Assembly: GCF_000420945.1 (NCBI RefSeq)
Contig: NZ_ATVX01000009.1
Location: 1-64,000, forward strand
Source of the DNA: Butyrivibrio sp. VCB2006
GTDB taxonomy: Bacteria > Bacillota > Clostridia > Lachnospirales > Lachnospiraceae
DNA: 64,000 nt
Direction: 5' to 3'
A model generated the notes under the pieces. That model saw only the letters and a list, made by a program, of their open reading frames with translations, ran no database searches and was not told where the DNA came from. This document shows positions 19,106-49,967 of the stretch, piece after piece. The first letter of the stretch is position 1. Each line of letters starts with the position of its first letter. The position numbers were made by a program, and so were the translations under genes.

Positions 19106-19150
19106 AAAAAAACGATGCGAAAATGATTTCTCAAATTCGCACCGTTTTTT
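19106..19150 (-). terminator. Bidirectional terminator ending the 30.8-kb operon
   Basis: An 11-bp stem with one mismatch, AACGATGCGAA (19111-19121) with TTCGCACCGTT (19136-19146), is followed by TTTTTTT on the minus strand and TTTTTT on the plus strand. It lies directly after the stop of the last gene of the big cluster at 19155. Confidence 0.85.
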
Positions 19151-19154
19151 ACAC

Positions 19155-21443
19155 TCAGTGTTTTATTCTTTTTCCACACTTTGGACAAACGGGAATGTAT
19201 TTAATTCTATGATCCGGTTGCTCCTCAAACTCAAAATCTGTAATTGTCAGCCTGTCGAAGATTATTTCTTTCTTAAGCATCAAGTCAAAGTAATCGAGAT
19301 TTCTAATATCGTCTCGTTTTATCTCTACAAATGGTCTGGACCACTCGTAGCTCATTCCGCAGCCGTCAGCATGCTTGGTTTTACCAAAGATTACTCCACA
19401 CTCCGGATTTTTGCACCTCCAGTTATTGTCACCCTCATCCAGACAATCCTTTGAGCCACAGATAGGGCACATCACACTTCCTCTACTCCATTTTATCTGA
19501 AGCCTTGCAGAATGCGATGAGACGAGCTTCATGAGCCTTTGAGCAGAATTCATCTCAGATTGAGCAACAGGTATTATTCCTGCCTTATAATCTCCCCATC
19601 GCTTTGCATCTTCATCACAATACTTCTCTCCATAGCTCAAAAGTCGTGAAATCAGCTTGTCTGATTTAATGCTCTTTTTATAATCGCTCAAATCTATCGG
19701 AAAAATGAACACCACTCGATCATTTATTGAATCAAGTGCATTCTGTGTAAACCTATCCACAGCAGCTTCCGTGTTTTCAATTTTTGCAAACTGCGGAACT
19801 ATGCGTAAAGCCTCTTTTCTTTGCTCCTTGAATCCAGTCGATGCAAAAAGTTCTTCAAGCTCAACTCTCCAAACTTTATCTGCTTCATCTAGCAAGCGCT
19901 TTTCTTGCTGTGTTAGCCCCTTTTCCTCTGACTTACTCATGTGGAACAGATTTTTCATCTTTTTCTGTTCAGTAGCATCTGGCTTTGAAGTAAAGATTAT
20001 GCTTTTGCCAGTTTTATCTATAGCAGCCCCATATGGAAGTGCAGTCCTTATTTTATTCATGTAACTGGCAGCTTTCGCTGGAATCAGATATTCGACTGTA
20101 TTTTTTTCTACATACTCCAGGAATAGTCCCACATCACTGTCAGATTCTGACATAGTCTTCAAATGGCATGTTATTGTTTCTGATGAAAATAATGCATCAA
20201 CCCCCAATGTACCATCAATATTCATCGTAAACTTAGATCCGGGCTCAATACTGTATTCAAGCAGCTTAAACACGTACATGAGAAGCACTGTAACATACAT
20301 TTCGTAACAATGATTAAAACTTAAATCAACGGATCCTTGAACCCCCATCTCATCCTGATGATTTTGAACAATCTGTCTTTGGATCTCACCCCAAAGTCTG
20401 TATAAAGCATTATATCTTGAATCCTTTTTTAGAATATTTGTCGGCTGAATATTCCTGCTGATTCTCTTCTTTTTATCAATGCTCCTATAAAACTTTGATG
20501 CTTCTACAGTAGAAAAACTGCGCTCAAGTTTCTCCCATTGCTTCAGAAGATCTTTCAACGTCCCATTCTCTTCGGTCTTTATTTTTAGATTATAATCTGG
20601 CAGGAGTTGTTCAAAAATCCTTGTACGTTTATAATCTGATAAATCCTTTCCATATTTATTCCAATCTATGGTACTATCGTTCTGCTGTATAGTTTTCTCG
20701 AGACTAACTACCTGCCTATGGACATACCTAAGCACATCGTCCACCGCCATCCTAAAAAACAAGTTTTCGTAAATGCTTATTTCATCTTCATATACATCTG
20801 TTCTCAATCTGTTAGGCACCAATCCGTTCAGCGTCCTAGCCTTCCAATGTTCTGAATGAGACGCAAGATGATCCATGGTTCTGGAATTAATACCTTTAAC
20901 TATGTTGACATCCAATACTGCCTCCTCGGTCTTGAGGCTTTTCTTAGGATGAGAACATATATCCATTACCATCGGAACCACTTCAGCAATTTTCCTTAAC
21001 AAGGATTGGTCATCGTATCCTGCATACGGTGTTTTCTCGATAATAAGAGACACTTGGTCTTCTTTAATCGCGTTATATAACGTTTCTACTGAGTATTCCT
21101 TGCCAATTCTAAACGCCTCTTCCATCTGCTCTTCAAATTTGAAGAGATTAATAATATCCTCTTCATCCAAAGGAATCGTGTTCTGCAAGATAAATGTATA
21201 TTTAAAATAGACAGAGTTATACCATACCGTAATATTACACCGGTTTTGCTTATCTAAAAGTACAGGAAACACATACTCTCCAGCGCCTGTAAACTCTTCC
21301 TCACAATAGCTCGATGATATTTTTACACTTTCGTCATTTCCAAGCTTAATCTGAAGAATATTATCATACAAAAGCAGCTCTGTTTTGCAGTTTTCTTCTG
21401 GCAATTGTTCGATGCCCATTGTATTTTTAACAAATATCTGCAT
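19155..21443 (-). CDS. DUF2357/McrC-like protein with zinc ribbon (762 aa)
   Basis: Last gene of the operon. The N-terminal 250 residues resemble DUF2357/McrC-like scaffold proteins (LVPNRLRTDVYEDEISIYEN, FFRMAVDDVLRYVHRQV). A nuclease-like core begins with LSFNHCYEMYVTVLLMYVFK, but I cannot find the expected acidic-x-Lys pair of a PD-(D/E)XK site, so it may be degenerate. A zinc ribbon (CPICGSKDC, then CKNPEC) lies at about 660-690 and another CPKC ends the protein. The McrB-like gene ends 6 bp upstream. I infer the effector or target-recognition partner. Confidence 0.7.
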   Translation of the reverse strand: MQIFVKNTMGIEQLPEENCKTELLLYDNILQIKLGNDESVKISSSYCEEEFTGAGEYVFPVLLDKQNRCNITVWYNSVYFKYTFILQNTIPLDEEDIINLFKFEEQMEEAFRIGKEYSVETLYNAIKEDQVSLIIEKTPYAGYDDQSLLRKIAEVVPMVMDICSHPKKSLKTEEAVLDVNIVKGINSRTMDHLASHSEHWKARTLNGLVPNRLRTDVYEDEISIYENLFFRMAVDDVLRYVHRQVVSLEKTIQQNDSTIDWNKYGKDLSDYKRTRIFEQLLPDYNLKIKTEENGTLKDLLKQWEKLERSFSTVEASKFYRSIDKKKRISRNIQPTNILKKDSRYNALYRLWGEIQRQIVQNHQDEMGVQGSVDLSFNHCYEMYVTVLLMYVFKLLEYSIEPGSKFTMNIDGTLGVDALFSSETITCHLKTMSESDSDVGLFLEYVEKNTVEYLIPAKAASYMNKIRTALPYGAAIDKTGKSIIFTSKPDATEQKKMKNLFHMSKSEEKGLTQQEKRLLDEADKVWRVELEELFASTGFKEQRKEALRIVPQFAKIENTEAAVDRFTQNALDSINDRVVFIFPIDLSDYKKSIKSDKLISRLLSYGEKYCDEDAKRWGDYKAGIIPVAQSEMNSAQRLMKLVSSHSARLQIKWSRGSVMCPICGSKDCLDEGDNNWRCKNPECGVIFGKTKHADGCGMSYEWSRPFVEIKRDDIRNLDYFDLMLKKEIIFDRLTITDFEFEEQPDHRIKYIPVCPKCGKRIKH

Positions 21444-21449
21444 TATATA

Positions 21450-23792
21450 TTACCCTGAAATCTTTTCTATTAGCTTTTCTATCTTGCTAATACTCTGCTT
21501 AAATACACCATTCCCATAAATTTCATTCAAGCCATTTTTCAAGTCTTCGAGCCTATTCAAAAGATATGGTTCATACCTTTCATCTAGTTTTCTAAGAATC
21601 TTATGAGTCAAAAGATAATCCACAGCTGCTTCCTTCGTTCCACCACAAGCAATATACACAGGAACAAACTCCTCCATTTGACTCATTATTCTATTACCAA
21701 AAGTAATATCCATATCTTTGAGAAGATCATCCACCAGCTCAATCTTTTCTTTGTCAGATTTGTTAAGCTTGTTTTTTGTTGTAGATTTAGCGGCATTAAA
21801 AAGATCTAACATCTCATCCATATCAACAGCAATCTTCTTTACTGTCTCTCCCTTAAATGGATCTACACGGCTATCCATATCCAGAACCTGTGCACGGTCA
21901 TAAACCTTATCTGTTATGATCGATGTTGAGTCATCATTATTGGCTGTTCCAACAAACCATATATTATTGCTAACGATGATATTTGCTGCCTCATTTGAGT
22001 AATCAAGATATTTAGGTTTCTGGTCCTCGGCTAATTCTGAATAACCAGATACAAGTGGAACAATCCATTCATTCTGATTTGGTTTTTCCAATACAGATAA
22101 GAAATCAGCAAAATAATACTCTATTCTGGCCAAATTCATTTCATCTAGCACAATAAAAAACATTTTATTTCTATTCTCAAGAGCCGATGCCTCATACAGA
22201 TATTTAGTAAACTCAGTTTCCTTGAATCTGTTTGTAAAATCATTGTCATATCCAAGTAACTCTCTGTTATCTCTCCATGAAGGCTGTACAGGAACAAACT
22301 TACACTCTGTTCCAAGCGCCTCAGCCACAAGTCTGGGAAGACTAGATTTTCCAGTTCCGCTCAGTCCCTGTAATATTAGTAACCTGGATGCACTTTCTGA
22401 TGCAGCAAGAGAAGCCAAGAACACCCTGATGGTATCAACGGAATAGTAAAGCCCCTTCTTAGTAGCTCCATAATTTCTTATATACTCGCATAGCTCCTCT
22501 AAAGAGCCATTGAATCCAGAAGGATTGAATATTTTCTGGTTTTCAATCTCTTTATCTATATCAAGAAGTACCTTAAACTTGCTCTCCTGTGTACTCTTAT
22601 ACTGCTCGCTTATGTACTTAAGCTTCATCTGAAGCTGATTGTTAAGAGATTCCAATGAAGCTGCAGCAACACGAGCATTCTCCAATTCACGAGTACTCAT
22701 TGCATAGGCACTTATCTTAGCCTCTGCCTCTGTTCTCTTCTGCTTTTCGTCGTCAAGAGCTATTCTAACAGCCTCCAATTCCTTAGTATTTGCACGGAGT
22801 CTCTCAATCTCTTCCTCGGATGGCATATTTGCCAGCTCATCATTTCTGCGCTTTGCTTCCTCAAGCTTTGCTTCTAATTCCTGCATTCTCGCAACCATGG
22901 ATTCGCCATTATCATCCAAAAGTGCGCTCTCCATTTTTGTTGCCTTTTCCCTCTGTTCCTTAATAATCTCTGAATATGCATCTATCTGTTGCTCATAATG
23001 TGCAATTTGTTCCTGTAGCTTAATAACTTCCTTTTCAGAATACTGACTATATTTAGCCTTAAGCTCTTTAACGTATTCTGCTTCTTCATCCAGATCAGCC
23101 TTCTGCTCGGCCATTTCTTCCATTTTTTTCTCAAGTTCGGCTTTTCTAGATGATAGTTCTTTTATTCTCGCTTCATATTCCTTAGAAAGTTCTGTACGCT
23201 TCTCTTCTATGGATTTATTTGCTTCACGAATAATCTCAATCTTGCTTTCCTCTGCAGCATTCCTCTCTTCATGAGCTTTTTGATACTCTTCATCAATTTT
23301 TTCACGCTGAGACTTGATATAATCATTAAGCTCAACTCTCTGCGCAGTCTTATCGGCTTCCCATTCAGCATAAATAGCCGACTTCTCTTTCTCTCTGATT
23401 CCTCTTTCATCAGCTTTAATACGTGCAATCTCCTCCGCAACAGCAGATTCACACTCCTTCTTAACCTGGGCCTGAGTGTTTAATAATTCTTTTGCCTTCT
23501 TCTCCTGGTCATCCTTCTGTTTATTTAACACTTGTTCTTTTAGGTCCAGATCAGCCTGCTTTTTTTCATAGTCTTTCTTAAGGCTTTCTTCTTTTTCCTT
23601 ATAATCTGCCTCCAAAGATTCTTTTGCGGCCTCCAATTCAGCCACCTTATTTGCCACTCGTTCATCTGTAATAAGTGCAGCATCTATCTTATCCTTTTGA
23701 GCTTGCTTTAAGTCTTCGATTCTTTCTGCCTGAGATTTTTGGCTATCATTTTTCTGATTTCCAAATAGTGCATTTTGCTTTTTCTTACTCAT
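21450..23792 (-). CDS. Coiled-coil McrB-type AAA+ NTPase (780 aa)
   Basis: Residues 1-410 are almost continuous coiled coil. Residues about 450-760 are an McrB-type AAA+ module: Walker A GLSGTGKSS near 474, Walker B FFIVLDEMNLARIEYY near 545, and sensor NIWFVGTANNDDSTS. McrB enzymes translocate DNA after binding modified bases through an N-terminal domain. Here that domain is replaced by the coiled coil, so recognition is probably by another subunit. It is followed by a McrC-like gene, the standard order. The coiled coil resembles SMC-like or gasdermin-style sensors in length only. Confidence 0.85.
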   Translation of the reverse strand: MSKKKQNALFGNQKNDSQKSQAERIEDLKQAQKDKIDAALITDERVANKVAELEAAKESLEADYKEKEESLKKDYEKKQADLDLKEQVLNKQKDDQEKKAKELLNTQAQVKKECESAVAEEIARIKADERGIREKEKSAIYAEWEADKTAQRVELNDYIKSQREKIDEEYQKAHEERNAAEESKIEIIREANKSIEEKRTELSKEYEARIKELSSRKAELEKKMEEMAEQKADLDEEAEYVKELKAKYSQYSEKEVIKLQEQIAHYEQQIDAYSEIIKEQREKATKMESALLDDNGESMVARMQELEAKLEEAKRRNDELANMPSEEEIERLRANTKELEAVRIALDDEKQKRTEAEAKISAYAMSTRELENARVAAASLESLNNQLQMKLKYISEQYKSTQESKFKVLLDIDKEIENQKIFNPSGFNGSLEELCEYIRNYGATKKGLYYSVDTIRVFLASLAASESASRLLILQGLSGTGKSSLPRLVAEALGTECKFVPVQPSWRDNRELLGYDNDFTNRFKETEFTKYLYEASALENRNKMFFIVLDEMNLARIEYYFADFLSVLEKPNQNEWIVPLVSGYSELAEDQKPKYLDYSNEAANIIVSNNIWFVGTANNDDSTSIITDKVYDRAQVLDMDSRVDPFKGETVKKIAVDMDEMLDLFNAAKSTTKNKLNKSDKEKIELVDDLLKDMDITFGNRIMSQMEEFVPVYIACGGTKEAAVDYLLTHKILRKLDERYEPYLLNRLEDLKNGLNEIYGNGVFKQSISKIEKLIEKISG

Positions 23793-25430
23793 TTAAACCG
23801 CCTCCATGTATCTGTTATAAAGGGCAATAAAATTTCCTTCAAACTCACTATACTGTTTCTCTACTTCAGCTAAAGTAAACTCTAAATCTGCCAGCTCATC
23901 ACCGCCATGGGACGCAATATTTCCTGCACCTTTTCGCTTTGCCCCCTTATATGCATTAAGGTTTGACGTATATTCTTTTATTGATAAAGGCAACAATGGA
24001 AGGCTTCTTAAAAGCTCCATAGAAACTCCATTTTTATTCTCCCATGCATCTATCAAGATCATAGCCATGTATCCAGGAGCATTTCCATCGTCATCGTTAC
24101 ATTTCAGCATGTTGTTATATACGTATTTATACTCTCTAAGTATGTCATCAGACAAAAAAGAGTAGGATTTCACTAATGTCTTAAGTTTTTGGTTATATTC
24201 CCAAAACTCTAGCTTTTGGCATTCGTACAAATGCTTGTTATGCTTAACCAAAAGCCTTAGACTCGCTTCGTAAGCTTTCCTCATATTTTGCGCAAATTCA
24301 GCCGATTCATCTTCTCCGTTTTCGAAACGATACTTACTCTTCGTAAGAAGTTCAATTGTCCTCTTTACTGCTTTATATTCAGAGTCATTGCATATATATG
24401 GATACTTGTCAAAAAGAGCAATATCCAAATTATTACCGAATGCAATAGAGTCTTTAAGCTCTTCTTTCTTCTCCATTAGGAACAACTGTATCTCATCTTC
24501 AAAATCCTTGTTGCATGCCCTCATTCTGTTAATAACAGTTCTAAACCAATCGTCAAGGCGCTTCCCAAAAGGTGAAACAATTATTAGTTCATCTGGAGCA
24601 TTTTTGTTAATTGCTATAAATCCTCTGGCTGAATAATACTCCGGTGAATCGTCCAAAATTGTTAGATTTGTAATCTGTTCCAAGTCATGCTTCTGTTTAT
24701 CTTCCGCTTCTTTTTCAGCTAGTGTCTTAACATCTTCTTCGACGCTCCCATCTTCCTGGATTGTTTCCCAATCAATTTCATCCTCAAATGGAATATATCC
24801 ATCCATCTGAGCTGTATCTACAGTGACTTCTGAGCAGTCAATGGTATTTGATCCAGTCTCTTCGCCACGCCTCAAATTATTACACAGTTTCGCCCAATAT
24901 CTCATGGCTGTGCGAATCGCAGCACTTTTGGGTTTTTTCCCATAGTTGTTCTCATACTTTACTTCTAAAGCACCAGGATCTTCCAAATAATAATCCGGCA
25001 ATTTCGTGATATCAAAAACCGGAATAACACTTTTTGTAACCATATCCTGAATCATATATATTTTTCTATTCTTCTTAGAAGCTTCTAAATCGCTTAAATA
25101 TGGGTTATCATACTTAGCCACCATGCTTTTCCCATCATTACTAAGTCTCAATTCCTTAGTTCTTTTATCGAAATATCCTTCATTTCTGCAGGACTCAATA
25201 GCTGCGTCTACTAAGTCCTTATTAAAGCCTATTTGGGAACACAATATAGCCTTGGGGTTATTTATGCCGTTATTGACAAGTTGTAATATCAGATGTTCAA
25301 GGATATTTATGTCCTGAACATCGCTCTCTGGTATATAGCACGTCCATACCGCTACAGGCCATGCAAACGCCCTTCTCTCATTGGCACTGACATTTCTATA
25401 ATCAGCACCAAAATCATACAATTTGGCCAT
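23793..25430 (-). CDS. Unknown protein with N-terminal winged-helix-like region (545 aa)
   Basis: No family recognised. The first 120 residues (ILEHLILQLVNNGINNPKAILCSQIGFNKDLVDAAIESCRNEGYF) look like a winged helix. Around 200-270 there is an acidic linker, and 280-540 is helical with ELIIVSPFGKRLDDWF and a TLVKSYSFLSDDILREYKYVYN stretch. An AAAGGAG site precedes the ATG. It lies one base from the helicase and abuts the McrB gene, so it is a fixed subunit of that module. A DNA or modified-base reader is possible. Confidence 0.6.
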   Translation of the reverse strand: MAKLYDFGADYRNVSANERRAFAWPVAVWTCYIPESDVQDINILEHLILQLVNNGINNPKAILCSQIGFNKDLVDAAIESCRNEGYFDKRTKELRLSNDGKSMVAKYDNPYLSDLEASKKNRKIYMIQDMVTKSVIPVFDITKLPDYYLEDPGALEVKYENNYGKKPKSAAIRTAMRYWAKLCNNLRRGEETGSNTIDCSEVTVDTAQMDGYIPFEDEIDWETIQEDGSVEEDVKTLAEKEAEDKQKHDLEQITNLTILDDSPEYYSARGFIAINKNAPDELIIVSPFGKRLDDWFRTVINRMRACNKDFEDEIQLFLMEKKEELKDSIAFGNNLDIALFDKYPYICNDSEYKAVKRTIELLTKSKYRFENGEDESAEFAQNMRKAYEASLRLLVKHNKHLYECQKLEFWEYNQKLKTLVKSYSFLSDDILREYKYVYNNMLKCNDDDGNAPGYMAMILIDAWENKNGVSMELLRSLPLLPLSIKEYTSNLNAYKGAKRKGAGNIASHGGDELADLEFTLAEVEKQYSEFEGNFIALYNRYMEAV

Positions 25431-25431: not shown

Positions 25432-28400
25432 TTACTGCTCCTTTATCACATGACTTTTCTTATACATTTCAAGTAATGGCTTTACATATTCATGTTCTTC
25501 ATCAAATGCAACTGTTTCTGAATCCCCTACTGCTATCAGTAGTCTCTTAGCTCTACTAAATGCCACACAAAGTCGATTGTTATTATTCAGGAATCCAACT
25601 CTGTTTTTCATATCCTTCTCTCTGTTAGCACGAACTACAGATAATAAAACAACATCAAATTCCTTTCCCTGAAATGCATCTACAGTACCAACCTGAATTC
25701 GGTGAATGTCGCTTGGAAAATTTGCACGAACCATTTCATTGAGGAGTTCAGCCTGTTTGCTATAGAAAGTGATGATACCGATTTCATATTCTGAGTTTTT
25801 TGCCAGTATCTTGGACAATTCCTTTTGTATCTGGTCAACCTCACATTTTCTGCTAGCGCTTTGTTTTTTTACTTCTGCAGGGAACTTTTCTGAAAGCGGG
25901 AGATCTATCCAAACAAGCGCATCATTATCATATAATCCTAAATTATGCTGTTTGTTCTCTATCTTACACATGGTATCAAGTTTTCCATCATAAAAGACAT
26001 TAACCAACTCGCATATATCCGGATGCATTCTGTACTGCTCAGTGAGCATAGCTGTTCTGTCTATACCAAGTTTCTTATCTTCAGAACCAATAAGCGCATT
26101 TAATCTCATGAACAGTGACTCTTCCAACACTGTTTCTACATTTTTCCCGTCAATCTTGCTGGCAACTGCCTCCACAATATCCCTCTCAACCATATGTGGA
26201 AGCTGCTTATGATCTCCAACCAAAATGATTTTTTTGCCCATAGACATAGGAATAAGTAAATCCAACGGATTTGATCTTGCAGCCTCGTCAACAATTACGA
26301 AATCGTAATCATCATCGAATCCTTCCATAGATGGACTTAAATTAGGATTTGCAGACTGTTGACAAGTTGCAGCATTTATCTTCGAGTACTTTCTTATTAG
26401 TCTATCTACGTTATTACTATTTGTAAGCTCTTGCTTGAATTCCCATATAATATTAGCCAGTGAAGCACCGTCATCATTTCCTTTGGAAACAAGTTCTAAA
26501 CGGTATCCCCTAATCAAGTCTTGTATGTCCTTATCAAGAAGCTCATTATTAACTACTGTCATTCCAGGACATAAGGCTTCCAATCTTTCACAATCCGCTT
26601 TCAAATTCTCTAAATAGCCATCCAATTCAGCACAGTCATCTGTAACCTTCTCAAGTTTTTTCCAATAATCAGGTATGTCAAATTCCAGTTCGCTATCAAA
26701 CTTCAGATAACGTTCTAATTGCTTTAATTGAATCGCTCCATCATCAAGATAAGCCTCTTTACTTAATCTTTGGCCATTTATCAAAGCTGGCAATGGATTC
26801 TCTTCGCTTTCAGGTGCATTACAAACTGAAGCCAGCTCAGAAATCACCATCGCATACTGCTTATGTAGTTCCGGACTCAGTTCCATATCAGCTGTCAAAA
26901 TGTCACATTCTTCTAAGAGTTTCTTGATTGTCATATAATCATTAGAAGTCTCTATTAGAACAAGCTTTTCAAATAATTCCCTCACCTTACTTCTGGAATT
27001 ATCTTCCTGCTGCGCAAGCCAGCCTTCACATGAATCCATCATCTTATCTATCCAGTCATAGATAAGGTAATTGCCGTCCTCTCTCCCTTTTCGTACTGCT
27101 ATTCGATTAACTGGAACACCGCCATAATTAACCTCTTTTACCGCGTTATCTACTGCATCGTGCTGTGTAGACGTAATAAGAATCTTGGCTTTACTGTTCG
27201 AAAGCTCATCTATTCTTTTTACTATAGCTTTTATAACCGATGTCTTTCCCGTTCCAGGAGGCCCCTGAATAACAGCAATGTCCGGTGTGTTAATAGCCAC
27301 ATCAATTGCATGCTTTTGTTTCTCGGTAAAATGATCCTCTTTATTCTCAAACACAGTCTGTTCAAGATCCGCAGAAATCGGCTGATTCCGACGTCCTATC
27401 ACCCCAACCTGCACGCCACCTTGGATTACACTTTTTAATCCAGGTAATCTGCATTTGTTAGAAAGGATATTTCTCTGCGCCTTTAATCTACGCTTTCGTT
27501 GTATTTCTGATCCAGTCAAGCTTGGAAGAAGATAACCTGACGAAGGTAGGATACACGTTGTATCCATATCTTCTTTTATCCTGAATTCGTTTGTGTTAAC
27601 ACAGCTATAGTCTATCTCAGAGCCAACAATAGTTGCGGCCTTGAAATTATATCCGAGGGGATCGAGAGGATCTATATTCTGAATTGCGACATAGTACATG
27701 TTATCTATACAGAACTCTCGTCTTGTATAGCATTTATCTAGGGAGAAAACTATAACCCCATTGGCATATCTGAACCCTTTGTACTTTAAGAAGCCCATTT
27801 CTGATGCTTCTTGCTTTATACTTTCCATCTCCAGCTCGTTATATAAATTCCACAAGCTGATAAATTCATTATCGGAGCTGATCATTTTAGCATATTGCTC
27901 ATCAGCTCTGGCCGTAAGCATCGCAGCATCGTTTATCTCATCAACAATCTCAATGTTACCTTTTACCAGCATAATAGGAGAATCTATCCTGCTTTTATTG
28001 GTTCTCTTAATAATCTGAATGATGTGAAGATAATGTTGAGGCGTCTCTACAATTGTGACTGTATATCTATCGCCGACTATCTGTAGCTTGCCATCCTCTT
28101 TTTCATTTTTATATGCAAAAAGATACTTGCCTCCTTCATCAACAATCAGCTGCTTTCTCATCTCATTTGCAGCGTTTTCCTTCTCTATATCATTGGCCAT
28201 AAGATCAGCAGCAATTGCCTGATCAATCACAATTCTAAGCGGATTCTCCTCATCATAATTTACAGCATCAGAAAACTCCATGAGTGTAAAGGAAATATCT
28301 GCTCCATCTATTAAGTCCGCTCTAAGGAGAGCTCTTCCATATGAAGAACGAAGTCTTGATATTACTGTCTGCATTTCAGCAGTAATGCCAACTCGAATAA

Positions 28401-28545
28401 AGGCTCCATCCGCATCTTTAATAAAAAGATCGTCCTGTGGAATCTGATAATCAACTATCCCTGTCTTTATCTTCCCTTCGGCGTTATCTATACTTGCCAT
28501 GAAACAAAACTCATTTGCAAATTTTATTCTGTTGCTTCTCATCAA
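25432..28545 (-). CDS. DNA2/NAM7-type superfamily 1 helicase (1037 aa)
   Basis: Motif I GPPGTGKTS near residue 430, motif II VDEAARS near 750 (Ala in the usual last position, as in UPF1/DNA2 relatives), motif III GDHKQLPH, motif IV LTEQYRMHP, motif V VGTVDAFQGKEFDVV and motif VI AFSRAKRLL. The 400-residue N-terminus is unmatched. ATP-dependent unwinding or translocation on DNA or RNA is expected. It overlaps the kinase gene by 4 nt. Confidence 0.9.
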   Translation of the reverse strand: MMRSNRIKFANEFCFMASIDNAEGKIKTGIVDYQIPQDDLFIKDADGAFIRVGITAEMQTVISRLRSSYGRALLRADLIDGADISFTLMEFSDAVNYDEENPLRIVIDQAIAADLMANDIEKENAANEMRKQLIVDEGGKYLFAYKNEKEDGKLQIVGDRYTVTIVETPQHYLHIIQIIKRTNKSRIDSPIMLVKGNIEIVDEINDAAMLTARADEQYAKMISSDNEFISLWNLYNELEMESIKQEASEMGFLKYKGFRYANGVIVFSLDKCYTRREFCIDNMYYVAIQNIDPLDPLGYNFKAATIVGSEIDYSCVNTNEFRIKEDMDTTCILPSSGYLLPSLTGSEIQRKRRLKAQRNILSNKCRLPGLKSVIQGGVQVGVIGRRNQPISADLEQTVFENKEDHFTEKQKHAIDVAINTPDIAVIQGPPGTGKTSVIKAIVKRIDELSNSKAKILITSTQHDAVDNAVKEVNYGGVPVNRIAVRKGREDGNYLIYDWIDKMMDSCEGWLAQQEDNSRSKVRELFEKLVLIETSNDYMTIKKLLEECDILTADMELSPELHKQYAMVISELASVCNAPESEENPLPALINGQRLSKEAYLDDGAIQLKQLERYLKFDSELEFDIPDYWKKLEKVTDDCAELDGYLENLKADCERLEALCPGMTVVNNELLDKDIQDLIRGYRLELVSKGNDDGASLANIIWEFKQELTNSNNVDRLIRKYSKINAATCQQSANPNLSPSMEGFDDDYDFVIVDEAARSNPLDLLIPMSMGKKIILVGDHKQLPHMVERDIVEAVASKIDGKNVETVLEESLFMRLNALIGSEDKKLGIDRTAMLTEQYRMHPDICELVNVFYDGKLDTMCKIENKQHNLGLYDNDALVWIDLPLSEKFPAEVKKQSASRKCEVDQIQKELSKILAKNSEYEIGIITFYSKQAELLNEMVRANFPSDIHRIQVGTVDAFQGKEFDVVLLSVVRANREKDMKNRVGFLNNNNRLCVAFSRAKRLLIAVGDSETVAFDEEHEYVKPLLEMYKKSHVIKEQ

Positions 28546-30032
28546 TCCTCCTGCCTGATCAGTATGAACTTACTGATTTCGGTTGTTCCATAGAATTTCT
28601 CAATCTGTTTTGTATCTATGAATTCACTGTCAGTGGTCACATCGATATTTTTATCCAAAAACATAAACTGTTTTCCCGGTGTTTCATCTATTACCGACGG
28701 AATCGTAACACCCTTTTTATATAAAGACACTTCTCTTGGTTTCGACATCTTTGAGTCGTTGAGAATTATCTTGGTATTTGACAGATTAATCACTGCTAGC
28801 TTTCCGTCTTTTGTTCTTGCTACAGCTGCAAGAGTCTGATCAGATTCAAAGGGAATATTTTCGTCAAAAAAGCTTCGATTTATATATTTCATTTCCTTTG
28901 TCACAGCCATGTTTCCTACTACATCAGAATAGACGTCAAGCGGCTGCATTTCTTTTGCGGCATCCAAGGGTATCAGAATTTTTCCTTTAGTCCTTACCAT
29001 GTTTCTGCTTGTAAGTAGATATACCTTTTTTATATGTTCGTCACACAATGGGCAGTTACAGTCTTTGCCTGTATAATAATACTCTGCATCACAGTCCTGA
29101 TTATCACACTGTATAACGTGATTCCTAGCATGCGCACAAGCTCGCATGAACTCAATAAGCGTCGGCCTTCTTGAACTTTCGAGCTTACCGTCTACAAAAG
29201 TTCTCCTGAAAAGCTCCAACAATTCATCCGTCAGAAAGACTTTTGTGTTTTCAAAATTGCTGTTTTTGTTCTTATCGCTATTCGGATCACCAATATAATC
29301 AAGCTTTCCCCTGTCTACAGACTCCTGAACCCACTCAGGATTAGCATCCTCAGCATCATCTCCAATGAATGGATGACAAGTCGTTAACATCTTGAAAAGC
29401 AAAACAGCGTATGAGTATGTATCAGTTACTGTATTGGCAACTGCTGCTTTGTTCGCAATTTCGGGCGCCATATAGAAATTGGTTCCATCAATCAGAGGAC
29501 TGTAAACACCTGAAGTAATATTGTCTGAATCTATTATGGCAAGACTATTTTTATCTCTTGAAACAAAAATATTGCTAGGCGATATGTCAACATATGCGTA
29601 TCCGTTGATATGCAGATACCTTAAGCTTTTTGCTAACAAACCACCAATTTGCAATCTCTTGGTTAAGCCACCAGTAGCATTAAAATACCAATCCCACAAA
29701 TCTTCTATTTCTTCAGGCTTCTCTACATAATCATTAAGAGAAACATGACCTTTGGCCTCTTTCATAACGTAACCAACAAATGGTTCTTCCAAAATTGCAA
29801 TCGGAAATGCAATCCTTGTTTCCTTTGGAAGCTGTGAGCCTTTTTTCTGCAGCCAACGATACCTCTCAGCGTATTTGTCCTTATCAATCGAAGTGTTTAT
29901 CTTGATCAAGTAATCCTCCGAAGTTCTGTAGACAACACCCTGTCCGCCTTTGCTCAAGACAGCGGTAATATGATATTCTCTGCCAAAAGTATCTTTAATT
30001 ACCTGACCAACGAGATCATTATCACTACCCAT
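28542..30032 (-). CDS. Ser/Thr protein kinase with zinc ribbon, TerY-P type (496 aa)
   Basis: The start at 30032 shares its A with the stop of the phosphatase gene (TGATG). Kinase fold at residues 1-290: Gly loop SKGGQGVVY (27-35), Lys45, catalytic segment YVDISPSNIF (Asp149) and IDSDN (Asp168/170 in place of DFG). A zinc ribbon (CDNQDC then CPLCDEH) lies at about 325-350 and a beta-rich C-terminus follows. This matches kinases of the TerY-P triad. Targets are unknown; co-encoded helicases and nucleases are the obvious candidates. Confidence 0.85.
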   Translation of the reverse strand: MGSDNDLVGQVIKDTFGREYHITAVLSKGGQGVVYRTSEDYLIKINTSIDKDKYAERYRWLQKKGSQLPKETRIAFPIAILEEPFVGYVMKEAKGHVSLNDYVEKPEEIEDLWDWYFNATGGLTKRLQIGGLLAKSLRYLHINGYAYVDISPSNIFVSRDKNSLAIIDSDNITSGVYSPLIDGTNFYMAPEIANKAAVANTVTDTYSYAVLLFKMLTTCHPFIGDDAEDANPEWVQESVDRGKLDYIGDPNSDKNKNSNFENTKVFLTDELLELFRRTFVDGKLESSRRPTLIEFMRACAHARNHVIQCDNQDCDAEYYYTGKDCNCPLCDEHIKKVYLLTSRNMVRTKGKILIPLDAAKEMQPLDVYSDVVGNMAVTKEMKYINRSFFDENIPFESDQTLAAVARTKDGKLAVINLSNTKIILNDSKMSKPREVSLYKKGVTIPSVIDETPGKQFMFLDKNIDVTTDSEFIDTKQIEKFYGTTEISKFILIRQED

Positions 30033-43134: not shown

Positions 43135-46029
43135 TTAGATGCTATCATGTGTAACTAGTGCTAATAACTGTTCAGCTATTTCAGCAGAATCAGTCCAATG
43201 TGGTTGCATATTACTGATGTCCTTAATATTTACAAGAAATCCTAATATATGCTGTATCATTTCTCTCTTCTCCCAATAATTCGGAAGATCATTTTTGATA
43301 TAATTCAATCCTTGTGAAGGATTCATATCTTCTTTTATTGCAACGTATATTCCCAAAAAAATAGTTCTCATCAAAGATGATTCAAAATCAGGGACATCAC
43401 TCATGCTCCTACTAGCCATTTCAAAAGGAGTTTTGAGCCTTGCTGTATTAGCCTTTTCACTAGCCATCAGCTGTGAATAACCCCCGATAGAAAAGCCTCT
43501 AGCATACTCTTGGTAAGTACTGATAGAGTAGTCTCCCTGCTTTTCACTTTCGAGTCCTTTTATAAAAAACTTCTCTGCATTTGTAAGATCCCGCCATAAA
43601 TATCCATCAAACTCGGCAGGTATCACGCAATCATATGCAATTTTCTTAGCGTTTTCAATAATAGTTACAACTTTACTTCCTGCTGGATTTTTTATTGCTT
43701 GGTTGAGTTCATAATCCAGATCAAGATCTTCTATTTCCGCATATGCTGTAAGCACTTTTAGCGATGCAGCATATGCAGCCAACACATAATCTGGATCCGT
43801 AAAATTAGGTTCTTCTTTATCATCAAGTTGCTGCATACTTTCTATTTGATTCTTAACTTCATTTCGAATATCAGCATTTATTTCATCTAGAAATGCCATT
43901 CCATTGTTGCTTTGTTTTCTCAAAACAAGAAGAACTGTTCCTTTTACATAATTGCCTTTTTTTATACCTGCAGCATCTGTTTCGGTAGCAATATTCCAAG
44001 CAGCCGTAACTTTCAAACCTGCTTTCCACATAATTATCGCTAATTGTGCCCATACAGCCGGATCACTATGCGTAAACATGACAATCTGCATACCCTCGCA
44101 ACTCATATGCGATGCTAAATTGCTGTAAATTCCTATCATAGTATTTGAAAAGCTATCATCGCCTTTAACTGCTAGAACTCTTTTACTATCAACATACCAA
44201 TCTGGAAATGTTTCTGTCACTATTCTTCTGTCCCAAGCCAAGAAAAACTCAGTCAATTCATGATAATTCACAGCATCAGCATATGGGGGATCAGTAATCC
44301 AATAATCACATATATGATCAATGTCTCTAGCATCTTTTATCTGAACTTCACAAGTACTTCTCACATCAGATGGAAGTCTATCAATAGAAAGAAAAAAGAC
44401 TCCTTCCAGCAATGACAGTCCTCTTGCTCCATAATTCCACATTGTATTAAATGCCTGATTATAAAATGTCTGCGCCATAGATTCTCTTGCTTGGCCAACC
44501 CCCCAGCTGCACAACTTACTATTCCAATTGCAGCATCTATGAAGACATAGAAGTCCATATATCCGCTCTTCTTTTGTCTTGGCTAATCGAATTATATTTT
44601 CGTGCATCAATCCATGCAAAATTAGTTGTCTATAGTTAAATAACTGATGCCAATATTTCCATCCCTTCTCACGTTCAAGCCTAGTAGTCTCAACGCCATT
44701 TTCAATAGCTGCTGAAGGAATTATGCCCTCAGCTTGCCAATAAGATATGTTTTTTCTTAAATAGTCAATTATGAATCTTTCGTTATCTAAATCATGCTTA
44801 TCTGGCTCTTTATAATATCTTTTTCCACTTGGATCATTGTATCTGATGGCATAAAGTCTCTCTCCCAATAAATCATCGTCTCGATTGATAAACTCCTCCT
44901 TCTCCCAACATCTTAACCCATAAGATGGATTTCCATTCTTATCTACACCATCATGGCGAATACTAGAAATTGGCGTTTCTTTTCCACATGCAGGACATAC
45001 CATTGCATTTCCTGAAAGGGTACCACTTGATTTTGCCCTCTTAAGCTCATCAGCAGATGCATTCATTTTTATTCGTATCCGAATGTGCTTATCTTCTTTT
45101 TCTAATATAGCGACCGTCTTTGAGCCTTGGCCAATAAGCCAATTAGGTGCCAAAGGGACACGCATCCCGCATTCAGGGCATGTTGCTTCCGTACAGTATA
45201 AATAAGCATCCCCTCTATCTCCATTTTCAGCAGACTCAAACCCCATTTCCTCAATTTGAGAATCCAGTTCATCATATACTCTTTTTTGGAAGTTCTTTAA
45301 TCCAATTTGATCTTTTTTAGACAACAGTGAAAATGATAGATCTGCCCAGGTCAGTAATCCCGCCACTGGATTCAAATCACTTGCAAACACATCTGCGCCA
45401 ATCCTTGATGCCTCAAAAGGAATACTTCCACCTCCCGCAAAACAATCTCCCACTATTATTTTATGTCCATAACGCTTTATGGACATCTGCTCAACAAATT
45501 CCTCTAAAGACTTAGCAGTTGTACCACAATAACCATTAATATCATTCCAAGTTTCAGCAGAGATTACATTCATCTCTTCGGGGCGCAAGCAAAATTTCAG
45601 CTTTTCATCATATCCCAAATTTGAAAAAATCAACTTTTCAACTTGTTCCTTGTCTATGTGTTCCGATAGTTTAACTTTACCTTTGACTTCTTCGAACCAA
45701 TTGTCAATATTCATTACAAGATTGGAATTGTTCTTGCATATTTCGAATAGTTCTTGAGAAGATAGTGATTTCTGACTTCTTTCCCATAATGATTCATTAT
45801 CAATCATTAATAGCTTCTGAAAAATCTCCATATCTTTCTTTGGATTATCAGTAGCAGGCAGTAAACACCCCAGGATAGCAGCGCGCACTAATATTAAGGG
45901 TTTTCTCCCCCACCACTTACCCAATCCTGTTAACGTCTGGCTCTGGACTGCTTTTCTTTCTTTAAAGCTCTCTTTGCTAACTTTAGATACCGGAAACTGT
46001 ACCTCTATAAACGATTTACCTTCACTCAT
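43135..46029 (-). CDS. DUF1156 DNA methyltransferase (964 aa)
   Basis: The N-terminal DUF1156 motif GLGKWWGRKPLILVRA is at residues 35-50. SAM-binding motif VGDCFAGGGSIPFEA lies at 193-207, with FASDLNPVA after it. The catalytic ITDPPYAD, an amino-methylase (N6-adenine or N4-cytosine) motif, lies near 580. Two Cys-rich insertions (CPECG, CPACGK) probably bind zinc. Its role would be to mark host DNA as self, with target sequence unknown. It overlaps the DUF3780 gene by 8 nt. Confidence 0.92.
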   Translation of the reverse strand: MSEGKSFIEVQFPVSKVSKESFKERKAVQSQTLTGLGKWWGRKPLILVRAAILGCLLPATDNPKKDMEIFQKLLMIDNESLWERSQKSLSSQELFEICKNNSNLVMNIDNWFEEVKGKVKLSEHIDKEQVEKLIFSNLGYDEKLKFCLRPEEMNVISAETWNDINGYCGTTAKSLEEFVEQMSIKRYGHKIIVGDCFAGGGSIPFEASRIGADVFASDLNPVAGLLTWADLSFSLLSKKDQIGLKNFQKRVYDELDSQIEEMGFESAENGDRGDAYLYCTEATCPECGMRVPLAPNWLIGQGSKTVAILEKEDKHIRIRIKMNASADELKRAKSSGTLSGNAMVCPACGKETPISSIRHDGVDKNGNPSYGLRCWEKEEFINRDDDLLGERLYAIRYNDPSGKRYYKEPDKHDLDNERFIIDYLRKNISYWQAEGIIPSAAIENGVETTRLEREKGWKYWHQLFNYRQLILHGLMHENIIRLAKTKEERIYGLLCLHRCCNWNSKLCSWGVGQARESMAQTFYNQAFNTMWNYGARGLSLLEGVFFLSIDRLPSDVRSTCEVQIKDARDIDHICDYWITDPPYADAVNYHELTEFFLAWDRRIVTETFPDWYVDSKRVLAVKGDDSFSNTMIGIYSNLASHMSCEGMQIVMFTHSDPAVWAQLAIIMWKAGLKVTAAWNIATETDAAGIKKGNYVKGTVLLVLRKQSNNGMAFLDEINADIRNEVKNQIESMQQLDDKEEPNFTDPDYVLAAYAASLKVLTAYAEIEDLDLDYELNQAIKNPAGSKVVTIIENAKKIAYDCVIPAEFDGYLWRDLTNAEKFFIKGLESEKQGDYSISTYQEYARGFSIGGYSQLMASEKANTARLKTPFEMASRSMSDVPDFESSLMRTIFLGIYVAIKEDMNPSQGLNYIKNDLPNYWEKREMIQHILGFLVNIKDISNMQPHWTDSAEIAEQLLALVTHDSI

Positions 46030-46573
46030 TTAATTCTCCTCCAAGAAACTCTTGTATAGAAATCTGATTGTTTTCATTTACTGGGTTTTCGCATAAAGCA
46101 TAACGAAGCGCCATTCTCCATCCACGCTTGTCATTAATATCTCCGGTACTTGCATTGGTCATTGTATAAAGCCACCAGCGTTCTTCTGGCTGTAACCCCA
46201 GCCAATTTCTAATTGCAGTAGGAATACCTGAAGGGTCATTATTCTCTATCCCCCATAACAGAACCATAAGCTCTTTTCCAAGCAGTTTTTCTACAGGTAC
46301 TCCACCATTTACAAATTTCCCAGTTTTTTTCTTATCAGCTTTTAATCTGCTATTGAATTCTGTAGCAACTGCAGAAGCAAGTTTCGACCATTTATATCTT
46401 GAAATCTTTAGCTTTAAAACATCTTTACGGCTTATTACCTGCTCGCCATCTTCATCCCAATGAAATCGTTCATATATTGACACTTCTTCTTTCTTGTCCT
46501 CAGGAATAACAACATAGAAATGATTTTCATTATCAACAGGATTAAAGCCAAACCCCATTATTTGTTTATTCAT
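46022..46573 (-). CDS. DUF3780 defence-associated protein (183 aa)
   Basis: Matches DUF3780: GFGFNPVDNENHFYVVIPEDK at the N-terminus, FHWDEDGEQVISRKDVLKL, GGVPVEKLLGKELMVLLWGIE and WWLYTMTNASTGDINDKRGWRMALRYALC. The family is nearly always found between DUF499 and DUF1156 genes; its biochemical role is not known to me. It overlaps both neighbours by 4 and 8 nt. Confidence 0.88.
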   Translation of the reverse strand: MNKQIMGFGFNPVDNENHFYVVIPEDKKEEVSIYERFHWDEDGEQVISRKDVLKLKISRYKWSKLASAVATEFNSRLKADKKKTGKFVNGGVPVEKLLGKELMVLLWGIENNDPSGIPTAIRNWLGLQPEERWWLYTMTNASTGDINDKRGWRMALRYALCENPVNENNQISIQEFLGGELNE

Positions 46574-49500
46574 TGATTGATAGTTCCTTCCTTGTTAAGT
46601 GTATTCAAATCCTGCTTACACAACTCTACCCAAGTATTAAACTTCCTACCCTCGTCAAAGCGCAGTTCTTTATAGTCTATCGTCACAGTAATATCCTTAC
46701 CCTCAAAGCTTGTTTCACGAACAAGATCAATCATTGCTTTAAACGTGTCAGGTTTATACTGTACTCCAGATTGAATCTCCACATAATTAGCCTGATTCTC
46801 TTTTTCAAATATAAATGCGCTTACTCCAGACATCGTAAGTCCATCGATCTTAGCCAGATTTTCAAGATTTCTATAACTGGATTCAGTATCATCACATTTT
46901 TTCTTAGACTTATACTTAAATACCAATGGCTGATCTTCATCGATTTTCTTTTCTTCAGCTTGAGCCGAGTCCTTAGATATCGGTACATCCTTAGTTGTGA
47001 TCAATTTCTCTGCGTACATAAGAGCAATACGAACAAACCTACATTCATCCGGCACAAGTATTTCTTCTGTATATATTCCGCCATTCTCTTTAGGCTCACT
47101 ACCATCTGTAGTAAACCTGATTTCATACTTCTTATTTGTTCTTATCTCAAAGTATCTTCCCGATGGAGTACTTCTTTCCCCATACTTCAATGAAGGCTCA
47201 CCAAGGAACTCTTTTATATCACCTGTTTTTCTCTCGCCGGATGGGTCAATACAAGCAAATCTAAGCTCTGGCTCAGTTGTAACAAGAACTTGATCTGTTA
47301 GTTCTGAAGAGGCAGAAGTCGGATCAGCACCAATATCATAGTAAACTCGTCCACCAATACCTCTTACTGATAATGTAAATTCTTCAGTATCTTCGTTATA
47401 ACTTGTTTGGCTTACCTGCACACTAGTAGGCTCTTTTTCAAACGGCCCCTTCTGAAGATATCCACCAAGTTCTCTCCACTTATCAGTTTTCAGACAGTAT
47501 GCCTTCAGACTATCAAGCTGATCAGGATGATACCATCCCCATACAGCTTCCGTGGCTGCCCTGTCGACAATCTGGTTGTATGTCATCTCAGATGTAGTAA
47601 ACAACCTGGCTTCACACTTCTTTCTGAGCGTTTCCATGAAACCATCTTCCTTAGAAAACGCCTCATATTTCATCTCATCAGCCAGTGTTTTCTTTATCTG
47701 TTCTTCACCATCAAACTTGTTATCCTTAAACTCCAATTTAAATTCTGTAGATACGATTCCATTTTTTGATGGATAATATAGTGTTACAAAGGTCTCTCTT
47801 ATTGTTGAAAGAAGTGCCTGTGTAGCCTTATCAAGCTGGACATCAGCCTCTTTTCTTTGCTGATCATTTGCCGGAAGCCCCTCATCATCCATATTTTGTA
47901 CTATTGTTTGAATGGCTTTCAGCTTTTTGCTATTAGCATACAGTTTTTCCATAATGCTTCTCTCTCCTGAGAGGAACATCACTCTGTTCTTTAACGAACT
48001 ATTGTTGTAATAATTTGCTAAATCTGGATGTAATGTATTTCCCGGGTATGGTTCAAATATTACAAGTGAAATCTTCTTTGTATCGAGACTAATCTCATCA
48101 ACAGCAGGTAGTACATAAAGGAGTTCATAGCAATCCTTCATCTTGGGTGCAAAATTGTCCTTCAAAATTTGACGAAGTTCTTTCTTGGCATTCTCATTCG
48201 TATAAGAATCCACTAGGGTATTCATCTCAGCGACCATATTCTTGGTATTCTGGAAGTATAAGCGGCCTCTATTATCAGCTTTTATATACCAACACTGAGT
48301 TCTCAAGCTTTCTAGAGCGCTCTTCATAACATTCATGTCAGCCCCAGGTGCACTCATGAAACCTAAAGCCTCTGCTTCTGTTAAACCTAAAAGAGCATGA
48401 CTTGCCGTTGAAAGCGAAGACACAAGAAGTAGCTTAGCAAGTTGCTGAGCATTGTTACTCTTATCCTGGCTTTCTTCATCTATAATTTCAGCTATGGCCT
48501 GTTTATCCTGCGCAATATCATGACTTATAGCTTCTTCAAGAGAAGGATTAATCTGTCTAAAGAGAGATAAGAGATTGGGATTATTAAGGTTTACATCAAA
48601 AACATTTATGATATAAGCCTCTTTTGCTCTTCCACTTTCATAAAACTCACGGACAATCTGTCGCATGAGCTTGATAAGACCTCTTGTCTGCTGAAAATTC
48701 TGATTTTCCTTAAATCTCGCATACAAATCCCTTATCGAAGGATGGAAAGGATATGAATCATTGATTCCCCTATATACAGCTTCTCCTGTATATGATGTGA
48801 ATCCCATCTTCTTTGACGCTTCTACGGCATCTTTGAAACCTATAGCAACTTCATTCTTTTCCATTGCATAGTTTTCTACTAATGGCTGATCTTCAAATAA
48901 ACGCTTCTTTAGAATGTAATAAATCTCGTCACTGTTAAGGGAAACTGGAGCAACTTCGATAGCAATACGATTCGCTTCCTGCTCAAGTTCTTTAAAGCTG
49001 GACTGAAGCAAATCACTGCCTGATTCATAAGCTGCTCTCAGATCTGAGAACACAAGGCATACATTAGCAAGCTGAGCCTTTCCAAGTGCGGAGAAAAGAT
49101 TAGCAAGCGCTGCAATAGTTACTTTGCTTAGATCTGAATTGCCTACAGTAATAGAACGAGCATTTTCCAAGTATGGAGGAAGCTCATCTAACAGAATGAG
49201 TGTTTTATCTCCTTGAAGAAGATTAATCCATGCACTTTCTCCAGGTGCCTTAAGCGGAGAATAATATCCTGAGAACATTTCTTTTTTACCTAATTGCTCC
49301 GCGATACTACCCCATATTCCAAAATCTGCATTCTCTCTTCCAGAAAAAGTAACTACGTTTATTTTTCCTAAAGCTTTATAGTCATCACCAAGTATTTCCG
49401 CGCGAAGATCCACGTTATCTGCAAGTAACGCCAATGCAAGCATGCTATGCGTTTTACCACCACCCATAGCCTGTGTCAGTTTCACTACGCCAGTATCAGA

Positions 49501-49689
49501 TTCTCCCTTGAATCTCTTAAATGCCGTATCAAAAAGCATTGTCATGCCCTGAGTTTTAAAGTTTTCAGAAAAGAATTTATGGGCATCTATATTCCCTTCT
49601 GCGAAATCAGACAGATTTAAGACATCATCTCTGACTGTATCTGAAAATACGCTTTCTCTTGGCTTTAGCATCTCAGCTATAGATCTCAT
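46570..49689 (-). CDS. DUF499 P-loop ATPase (1039 aa)
   Basis: P-loop VVKLTQAMGGGKTHSML near residues 68-84 and Walker B TLILLDELPPYLE near 163-175. The remainder is DUF499-type helical sequence with a C-terminal beta region (KYEIRFTTDGSEPKENGG) that resembles a chitobiase/CHB_HEX-like repeat. DUF499 ATPases are the defining partner of DUF1156 methylases in defence clusters; loading or sensing on DNA is inferred. First large gene, coupled by 4 nt to both the HTH gene before and DUF3780 after. Confidence 0.9.
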   Translation of the reverse strand: MRSIAEMLKPRESVFSDTVRDDVLNLSDFAEGNIDAHKFFSENFKTQGMTMLFDTAFKRFKGESDTGVVKLTQAMGGGKTHSMLALALLADNVDLRAEILGDDYKALGKINVVTFSGRENADFGIWGSIAEQLGKKEMFSGYYSPLKAPGESAWINLLQGDKTLILLDELPPYLENARSITVGNSDLSKVTIAALANLFSALGKAQLANVCLVFSDLRAAYESGSDLLQSSFKELEQEANRIAIEVAPVSLNSDEIYYILKKRLFEDQPLVENYAMEKNEVAIGFKDAVEASKKMGFTSYTGEAVYRGINDSYPFHPSIRDLYARFKENQNFQQTRGLIKLMRQIVREFYESGRAKEAYIINVFDVNLNNPNLLSLFRQINPSLEEAISHDIAQDKQAIAEIIDEESQDKSNNAQQLAKLLLVSSLSTASHALLGLTEAEALGFMSAPGADMNVMKSALESLRTQCWYIKADNRGRLYFQNTKNMVAEMNTLVDSYTNENAKKELRQILKDNFAPKMKDCYELLYVLPAVDEISLDTKKISLVIFEPYPGNTLHPDLANYYNNSSLKNRVMFLSGERSIMEKLYANSKKLKAIQTIVQNMDDEGLPANDQQRKEADVQLDKATQALLSTIRETFVTLYYPSKNGIVSTEFKLEFKDNKFDGEEQIKKTLADEMKYEAFSKEDGFMETLRKKCEARLFTTSEMTYNQIVDRAATEAVWGWYHPDQLDSLKAYCLKTDKWRELGGYLQKGPFEKEPTSVQVSQTSYNEDTEEFTLSVRGIGGRVYYDIGADPTSASSELTDQVLVTTEPELRFACIDPSGERKTGDIKEFLGEPSLKYGERSTPSGRYFEIRTNKKYEIRFTTDGSEPKENGGIYTEEILVPDECRFVRIALMYAEKLITTKDVPISKDSAQAEEKKIDEDQPLVFKYKSKKKCDDTESSYRNLENLAKIDGLTMSGVSAFIFEKENQANYVEIQSGVQYKPDTFKAMIDLVRETSFEGKDITVTIDYKELRFDEGRKFNTWVELCKQDLNTLNKEGTINQ

Positions 49690-49892
49690 TTTGTACCCTC
49701 CGTATTTTTATTCTTCAGTTCTCTAGATTCTTTTGTTCGCCCATCTTCAGGCTTTTGAGCATCAATAGGAATTAAATACGCTCTTCCAACCTGTGACACA
49801 CCTTCAATCCTGCCTTCCTGACAAAGAAGCCGGACTCGTTGCGAAGAAATACCCCATTTCTCTGCAGCCTGCACTGTTGACATATACTCCAT
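49686..49892 (-). CDS. Excisionase-type HTH protein, first gene of the operon (68 aa)
   Basis: An HTH_17/MerR-like DNA-binding domain at residues 1-50: MSTVQAAEKWGISSQRVRLLCQEGRIEGVSQVGRAYLIP. The rest is a charged tail. The start at 49892 follows CGGAGG, and the stop overlaps the ATPase start by 4 nt. Placed 45 bp after a promoter with a palindromic spacer, it is the best candidate for an autoregulator of the cluster. Confidence 0.8.
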   Translation of the reverse strand: MEYMSTVQAAEKWGISSQRVRLLCQEGRIEGVSQVGRAYLIPIDAQKPEDGRTKESRELKNKNTEGTK

Positions 49893-49938
49893 AAAAGAAC
49901 CTCCGATAATGATTATCAACGCAAAAACTTACCCATTT

Positions 49939-49967
49939 ATTATATTGCGTTATCGCAACAATATCAA
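49939..49967 (-). promoter_or_regulatory. Strong promoter of the 30.8-kb operon with embedded palindrome
   Basis: On the minus strand TTGATA (-35, 49962-49967) and a perfect TATAAT (-10, 49939-49944) lie exactly 17 bp apart. The spacer contains the palindrome TTGCG-4-CGCAA (49945-49958), a likely repressor operator. The first gene starts 47 bp downstream. Confidence 0.82.

Follow-up and report, generated by a model that had tools for sequence, protein, structure and literature searches.

CoCoNuT superoperons with upstream DNA-restriction systems reach upward of 40 kb, and their published partners include Type I restriction-modification, BREX, Druantia III, and other systems, with GmrSD a common neighbor of Type III-A CoCoNuTs (PMC11090510). 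That work put forward, without testing it, the idea that such arrangements provide layered defense. A second published kind, the Type-2 DUF499-centered BREX-related (BR) system, is marked by DUF3780 and by an HKD domain on its helicase (PMC12839542); in addition, the WYL protein BrxR acts as repressor of a plasmid-borne island that encodes BREX and an enzyme of the GmrSD family (PMC9122601). Here, we describe a run of 17 genes in Butyrivibrio sp. VCB2006 that brings these elements together. The window analyzed comprises bases 1 to 64,000 of contig C9 (NZ_ATVX01000009.1), which has 174,459 bases and belongs to a genome of 3.95 Mb. We favor, with a probability of about 0.6, the reading that a BREX-related quartet and a GmrSD-like pair form one superoperon with a WYL-led Type II CoCoNuT set for layered phage defense (activity predicted), while the modules also occur separately in relatives. 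Directly established were the content and order of the genes, the identity of each module (by profile and motif), the occurrence of the modules apart from one another, and the swap of the partner cassette.

The 17 open reading frames (ORFs) span 30.8 kb of the minus strand, from the small helix-turn-helix (HTH) gene g01 (49686 to 49886 or 49919) to the CnuC gene (19155-21443). Six of the 16 junctions overlap, and two gaps exceed 25 bp, one of 59 bp between g07 and g08 (35933-35991) and one of 81 bp between g10 and g11 (31523-31603), in agreement with the many overlaps and few gaps described in a first-pass annotation of this DNA. The bidirectional terminator proposed there at 19106-19150 was also borne out: the folding energy of the hairpin is −24 kcal/mol (z −6.85) for the minus strand and −16 (z −5.86) for the plus strand, none of 200 shuffles equaled it on either strand, and the same hairpin sits 3′ of CnuC in Butyrivibrio VCD2006. 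A consensus terminator scanner did not list this hairpin. The promoter called strong at the other end, TTGATA-17-TATAAT, stood as the best of 47 sites in its 19-kb scan, matching 11 of 12 consensus positions, but the scan as a whole showed no excess over chance (47 sites versus 56.0 expected from shuffles). Its spacer between the −35 and −10 hexamers contains an operator-like inverted repeat, TTGCGTTATCGCAA (49945-49958). A shared operator was not found: with up to one mismatch allowed, the repeat had one match in the window (0.98 expected by chance), and across 50 loci it was present only in the window's own. As for internal breaks in transcription, neither larger gap holds a terminator fold (z +1.79 and −1.08), and the promoter-like sites that exist inside the run occur at chance level. 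An Rfam scan over the window gave no match. From this layout, we infer that the 17 genes would be read as one transcript.

The first cassette, g02 to g05, matches the anti-phage models of both PADLOC and NCBI for DUF499, DUF3780, DUF1156, and PLD helicase; the NCBI equivalog cutoffs are passed by DUF1156 and PLD helicase and missed by DUF499 and DUF3780 (Table 1). Profile searches place the Type-2 BREX-related core in it, namely, a DUF499 ATPase, a DUF1156 N6-methyltransferase, an HKD-helicase, and a standalone DUF3780 protein, which is the set described under that name in PMC12839542. The strict HxKx4D pattern was not matched in g05, where the form HGKAGVIT...DG is common to the window and all six relatives compared (HGK or HAK). 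By these profiles, g02 to g05 are a Type-2 DUF499-centered BREX-related quartet, an already published kind, with predicted restriction and methylation functions. ARMADA was rejected as the home of these four genes, as it is built on a YprA-like helicase and the text of PMC12458937 contains no DUF499 or DUF1156. Profile matches confirmed the names given earlier to this set, to the GmrSD-like pair behind it (g06 and g07), and to the two WYL regulators (g08 and g09).

By gene content, order, and motifs, g11 to g17 are one seven-gene system matching a Type II CoCoNuT with TerY-P (PMC11090510), with functions predicted. The first-pass annotation had divided these genes into a TerY-P triad and an SF1 helicase plus McrBC-like module, a division that the single system replaces. 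Members of this type are expected to have a CnuB in which a long coiled coil is fused to an McrB-like GTPase with an NxD motif, a UPF1-like CnuH helicase that starts with an SmpB-like OB fold and an RNase-toxin-like domain, a CnuE made of an elongated winged HTH and a single HEPN domain, and a DUF2357 CnuC that has a CPxC zinc ribbon and an inactivated nuclease but lacks an Hsp70-like part. The triad, frequent but not core in Type II CoCoNuTs, is present in the run. For an RtcR/CARF gene at the 5′ end, which is frequent but not defining, Pfam and PADLOC scans of the 16 large genes and a Pfam scan of g01 gave no CARF match at an E value of 0.001. The CnuH helicase (g14) scored 190.2 bits against the IGHMBP2 family TIGR00376, below the cutoff of 348.9. 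In CnuB (g16), GTANNDD lies at residue 615, Walker A at 476, and Walker B at 546; 375 residues of its N half contain 1 Pro, 2 Gly, and 66% AEKQRL, and a simple heptad power test gave no peak. CnuC (g17) had no Pfam match to the Hsp70-like part. For CnuE (g15), a Foldseek search gave no match at an E value of 0.001, and a search of plasmids, phages, and viral contigs found none. Mokosh was considered as a name for this downstream half and rejected; g14 matches MkoA well, but the surrounding genes are the CoCoNuT set.

Relatives of each module were sought in genome collections with one genome per species, a loose first look in which absences are weak evidence. The order of the seven CoCoNuT genes was identical in 4/4 relative loci, and the quartet's DUF1156 methyltransferase had no match in those four genomes. 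In all six loci read, a VWA-PP2C-kinase triad was followed by helicase, CnuE/B-like, and DUF2357 genes. For a sample of 391 genomes of the class, the queries were the methyltransferase and g07, and CnuE was not among them. The methyltransferase matched eight other genomes, and stretches were fetched from seven of these (all except G668): each held at least two other quartet genes beside the methyltransferase, none held a homologue of g08 to g17, and one had a weak GmrSD-like neighbor (L028), with only G422, G491, and G443 reaching downstream as far as the CoCoNuT of the window. Relatives of g07 occurred in five other class genomes. Loci were fetched from three of them (G538 and G602 were left out), and in two the relatives of g06 and g07 were adjacent in the same order; no other window gene was found near these two Clostridia loci. 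Among 299 genomes of the family, CnuE and the methyltransferase each matched only their own genome; among 79 of the genus, CnuE matched two (its own genome and one other) and the methyltransferase one. In relatives, the BREX-related quartet, the GmrSD pair, and the CoCoNuT set are each found with neither of the other two close by.

A swap of the upstream cassette was observed in VCD2006. This strain keeps the block from WYL425 (g08), WYL322 (g09), and a g10 relative through VWA to CnuC, together with the terminator and several downstream genes. Upstream of the block are SspB, SspC, SspD/BrxP-like, SspA/DndA, DndF, DndG, DndH, an HNH gene, and a methyltransferase-like gene (the last identified by eye), with the Ssp modification genes (SspB, SspC, SspD/BrxP-like, and SspA) and the DndFGH restriction genes at L010:2058-17931. 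The leader before WYL425 in that strain (L010:19618-19771) has a promoter-like site, at chance level (2 found versus 2.2 expected), and after it a terminator-like hairpin of 16 pairs (1 found versus 0.1 expected). This hairpin may be an attenuator or a boundary; the single Rfam match over the leader, at 15.1 bits, was far below the cutoff of 50. Since the VCD2006 junction has a predicted terminator and the 59-bp junction of the window has none, the regulator-CoCoNuT block can be either insulated or closely joined.

The regulators that lead this block were characterized further. Searches of the PDB with WYL425 and WYL322 returned nothing credible and no solved WYL chain at an E value of 1, and a WYL gene beside a Deinococcus quartet shares only 23% identity with WYL425 over 101 residues. 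A regulatory role for the WYL pair is plausible because BrxR represses a BREX/GmrSD island (PMC9122601). The g10 relative of VCD2006 has 406 amino acids (aa), is 32% identical, and retains the first of the zinc-ribbon-like units as well as the C-terminal tail; the remaining block genes are 68 to 99% identical. In a comparison of nonsynonymous and synonymous substitution (dN/dS) between the two strains, synonymous sites were saturated for WYL425 and g10, and thus fast evolution of g10 is inseparable from older divergence of that segment. A single-protein search with g10, in which 7,989 candidates were scored, listed only g10 itself (the VCD2006 relative escaped that listing), a PDB sequence search gave 0 matches at an E value of 10, and a structure prediction from two sequences was not reliable (pLDDT 45). 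These 692 residues are a concrete candidate for an unrecognized trigger.

The content of the slot upstream of VWA differs between relatives. Two loci hold a small ORF, a 205-aa gene, and a 295-aa gene (L006:2065-3898 and L008:1531-3365), with identities between the loci of 66% and 59% for the two larger genes; by eye these appeared CARF-like and sigma-like, an assignment unconfirmed by Pfam (none above cutoff) and PDB. A third locus (L007) has a single WYL gene, with an opposite-strand gene between it and VWA. A WYL425 match was found in one of the four CoCoNuT relative genomes. By inferred genome, 5 of 59 CnuE relatives (VCD2006 and four more) coincide with the 120 of 203 WYL425 relatives that were listed, against a background mean of 0.31 and maximum of 3 at 600 offsets; the tie between WYL and CoCoNuT genes thus appears, by inference, to recur. 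A tentative extension, which we consider rather less probable than the superoperon reading itself, is that these CoCoNuT islands consist of three slots, two of them swappable (one for a DNA-restriction cassette and one for a sensor cassette) and the third a fixed killing core of TerY-P/CoCoNuT genes. The sensor of the window would then be the WYL pair plus a zinc-ribbon protein that has diverged strongly, together a novel type of trigger for suicide by RNA targeting, and related islands would hold the gene trio or the single WYL gene in that slot.

In the superoperon reading, the DUF1156 methyltransferase is predicted to mark the cell's own DNA, while the DUF499 ATPase and the PLD-nuclease helicase would find and cut unmarked phage DNA. 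The GmrSD-like pair would form a second layer, cutting DNA with bases modified to escape the first. The WYL proteins may then repress or activate the downstream genes upon binding a ligand born of infection or damage, while g10 might serve as sensor or coupler and the VWA/phosphatase/kinase triad as a phosphorylation switch. In the last layer, as predicted after PMC11090510, the CnuH helicase, the CnuB GTPase, and CnuC would bring the putative HEPN-like RNase of CnuE onto RNA, and failed restriction would lead through CoCoNuT RNA cleavage to dormancy or death. The layered-defense idea is that of PMC11090510, and its extension to this locus is our own suggestion.

The separate occurrence of the modules also suits plain defense-island stacking, in which the modules came singly on a mobile element, settled head to tail, and are independent of one another in both function and transcription. 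The predicted terminator and promoter between the cassettes of VCD2006 point the same way, as do the relaxase and transfer-type genes upstream of the region and a relaxase-gene stretch that matches at 73% upstream of the VCD2006 island. Against stacking are the 59-bp junction of the window, which lacks a terminator, the WYL pair and g10 relative that stay with CoCoNuT in VCD2006, and the consistent gene direction in CoCoNuT superoperons (PMC11090510); we regard it as possible but not the likelier account. One fixed 17-gene system was rejected on the separate occurrence of the modules and the different cassette of VCD2006. An obligate system in which all 17 parts are needed together would explain why the run is so tight, with six overlaps, and is bounded by a single promoter-like site and a single terminator, yet the modules occur apart and CnuE and the methyltransferase differ in their genus counts (two versus one of 79), making this version extremely improbable. 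Thus, the first-pass view of modules joined in one gene run holds, but the separate and shuffled occurrence in homologous regions that it set against a unified system was largely found, for the quartet, the GmrSD pair, and the CoCoNuT seven as well as in VCD2006. TerY-P triads have been tied to tellurite resistance and metal sensing (work quoted by PMC11090510), which could make the downstream half mainly a stress or metal-response unit with secondary restriction neighbors; the helicase, CnuE/B-like, and DUF2357 genes behind the triad in 6/6 loci read make this quite unlikely.

Table 1. Features of the 17-gene run in the Butyrivibrio sp. VCB2006 window
Feature	Coordinates	Strand	Basis or description
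Promoter-like site TTGATA-17-TATAAT	49939..49967	-	Consensus match only, 11/12
g01, small HTH protein, 66 aa (ATG 49886) or 77 aa (TTG 49919)	49686..49919	-	HTH_17 26.0 bits, just under cutoff 27
g02, DUF499 AAA+ ATPase, FnIII-like stretch 848-885	46570..49689	-	NF042962 735.8 bits, cutoff 1200
g03, DUF3780 protein	46022..46573	-	NF042961 161.3 bits, cutoff 200; Pfam DUF3780 166 bits, cutoff 27
g04, DUF1156 N6-adenine methyltransferase (DPPY)	43135..46029	-	NF042963 1233.7 bits, cutoff 1000
g05, PLD-nuclease/SNF2 helicase	40375..43122	-	NF042964 1253.4 bits, cutoff 1100
g06, GmrSD-like protein	38618..40351	-	GmrSD_N 117.0 bits (cutoff 33.2), GmrSD_C 30.5 bits (cutoff 23)
g07, GmrSD-like protein	35992..38616	-	GmrSD_N only, 67.9 bits; no GmrSD_C detected
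g08, WYL/WCX regulator, 425 aa (WYL425)	34655..35932	-	Profile matches
g09, WYL regulator, 322 aa (WYL322)	33700..34668	-	Pfam WYL 21.9 bits, cutoff 21.8
g10, 692-aa protein	31604..33682	-	Two zinc-ribbon-like CxxC...CxxC units followed by predicted helices
g11, TerY-like VWA protein	30812..31522	-	MIDAS DNSGS
g12, PP2C phosphatase	30032..30793	-	Profile match
g13, divergent Ser/Thr kinase	28542..30062	-	Cysteine cluster near 325-340, zinc-ribbon-like
g14, CnuH, UPF1-like SF1 helicase	25432..28545	-	Pfam AAA_11/AAA_12 above cutoff
g15, CnuE	23793..25430	-	Winged helix 34-108, putative HEPN-like C-terminal domain
g16, CnuB	21450..23792	-	Coiled-coil-like N half, McrB-like GTPase with NxD motif
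g17, CnuC, McrC-like	19155..21443	-	DUF2357, two CPxC
Terminator hairpin, foldable on both strands	19106..19150	-	Folding versus shuffles; same hairpin in VCD2006

The C10 CoCoNuT locus has a relative of g01 in its upstream part (53% identity over 51 residues). A serpin gene (50007-51104; Pfam 233.9 bits) is the immediate upstream neighbor of the operon, separated by 87 bp from the HTH gene in its longer form. Downstream of the operon, at 11477-17150, two HIRAN-domain and two DnaJ-like genes flank a SpoVK/CbbX-type AAA gene, and relatives of HIRAN, DnaJ, and SpoVK likewise lie downstream of the CoCoNuT block in VCD2006 (L005 and L011). MobA/VirD2-like relaxase, CD1107-like, NlpC/P60, and TraG-like genes occupy 55875-63865. 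Past the end of the window, as far as C9 position 74418, ORFs resembling coupling proteins, ParA, and replication initiators were recognized by eye. The region is probably carried on a conjugative element or a large plasmid.

The first-pass annotation did not recognize the combination as a named system, but the CoCoNuT superoperon, which it did not name, is already in print (PMC11090510). The main text of that paper contains no DUF499, DUF1156, DUF3780, or Dnd, with WYL in the references only, and the searched main text of PMC12839542 contains no CoCoNuT, McrB, or TerY. Among the titles listed in literature searches, none dealt with this combination, which paper supplements may list. Within the literature searched, a Type-2 BREX-related set as a CoCoNuT partner is apparently new, and so, apparently, is a regulator slot with content that changes between relatives. 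The locus ties two recently defined families, the DUF499 BREX-related systems and the CoCoNuTs, into one gene run. It also provides a natural swap experiment, in that two members of one genus carry this regulator-CoCoNuT block behind different DNA-restriction cassettes, and thus makes the published layered-defense idea directly testable.

Compared with known systems, the locus resembles Mokosh (PADLOC MkoA/MkoB) in g14, which scored 381.8 bits against MkoA over residues 79 to 1014, and weakly in the g13 kinase (26.7 bits against MkoA) and g15 (18.8 bits against MkoB); it differs in having kinase, phosphatase, and VWA as separate genes with McrB/McrC-like genes behind them. Likeness to the GmrSD-family type IV restriction enzymes lies in GmrSD_N in both g06 and g07, GmrSD_C in g06, and a DGQQR motif in both; here, however, they form a two-gene pair in which g07 has no detected GmrSD_C. 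As in the BrxR island (PMC9122601), HTH/WYL regulators stand beside BREX-like and GmrSD genes, but as a tandem WYL pair placed between cassettes. All four genes of the Type-2 BR system (NF042961-NF042964; PADLOC DUF499, DUF3780, DUF1156_MTase, and PLD_Helicase) are present in the gene order of other Clostridia, with the PLD domain at the helicase N terminus and the FnIII-like stretch in DUF499 (PMC12839542); the differences are the sub-cutoff equivalog scores of DUF499 and DUF3780 and the GmrSD and CoCoNuT genes behind. The closest match of the downstream half is the Type II CoCoNuT (PMC11090510), with which it shares the gene order VWA-PP2C-STK-CnuH-CnuE-CnuB-CnuC, a UPF1-like helicase, an NxD GTPase, a DUF2357 protein with two CPxC, a putative HEPN-like domain, and a position behind DNA-restriction systems in one gene run. 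It departs from that system in its upstream partner, a DUF499 Type-2 quartet plus a GmrSD pair, and in its regulator slot, which holds two WYL genes and a zinc-ribbon protein rather than the RtcR/CARF genes of PMC11090510.

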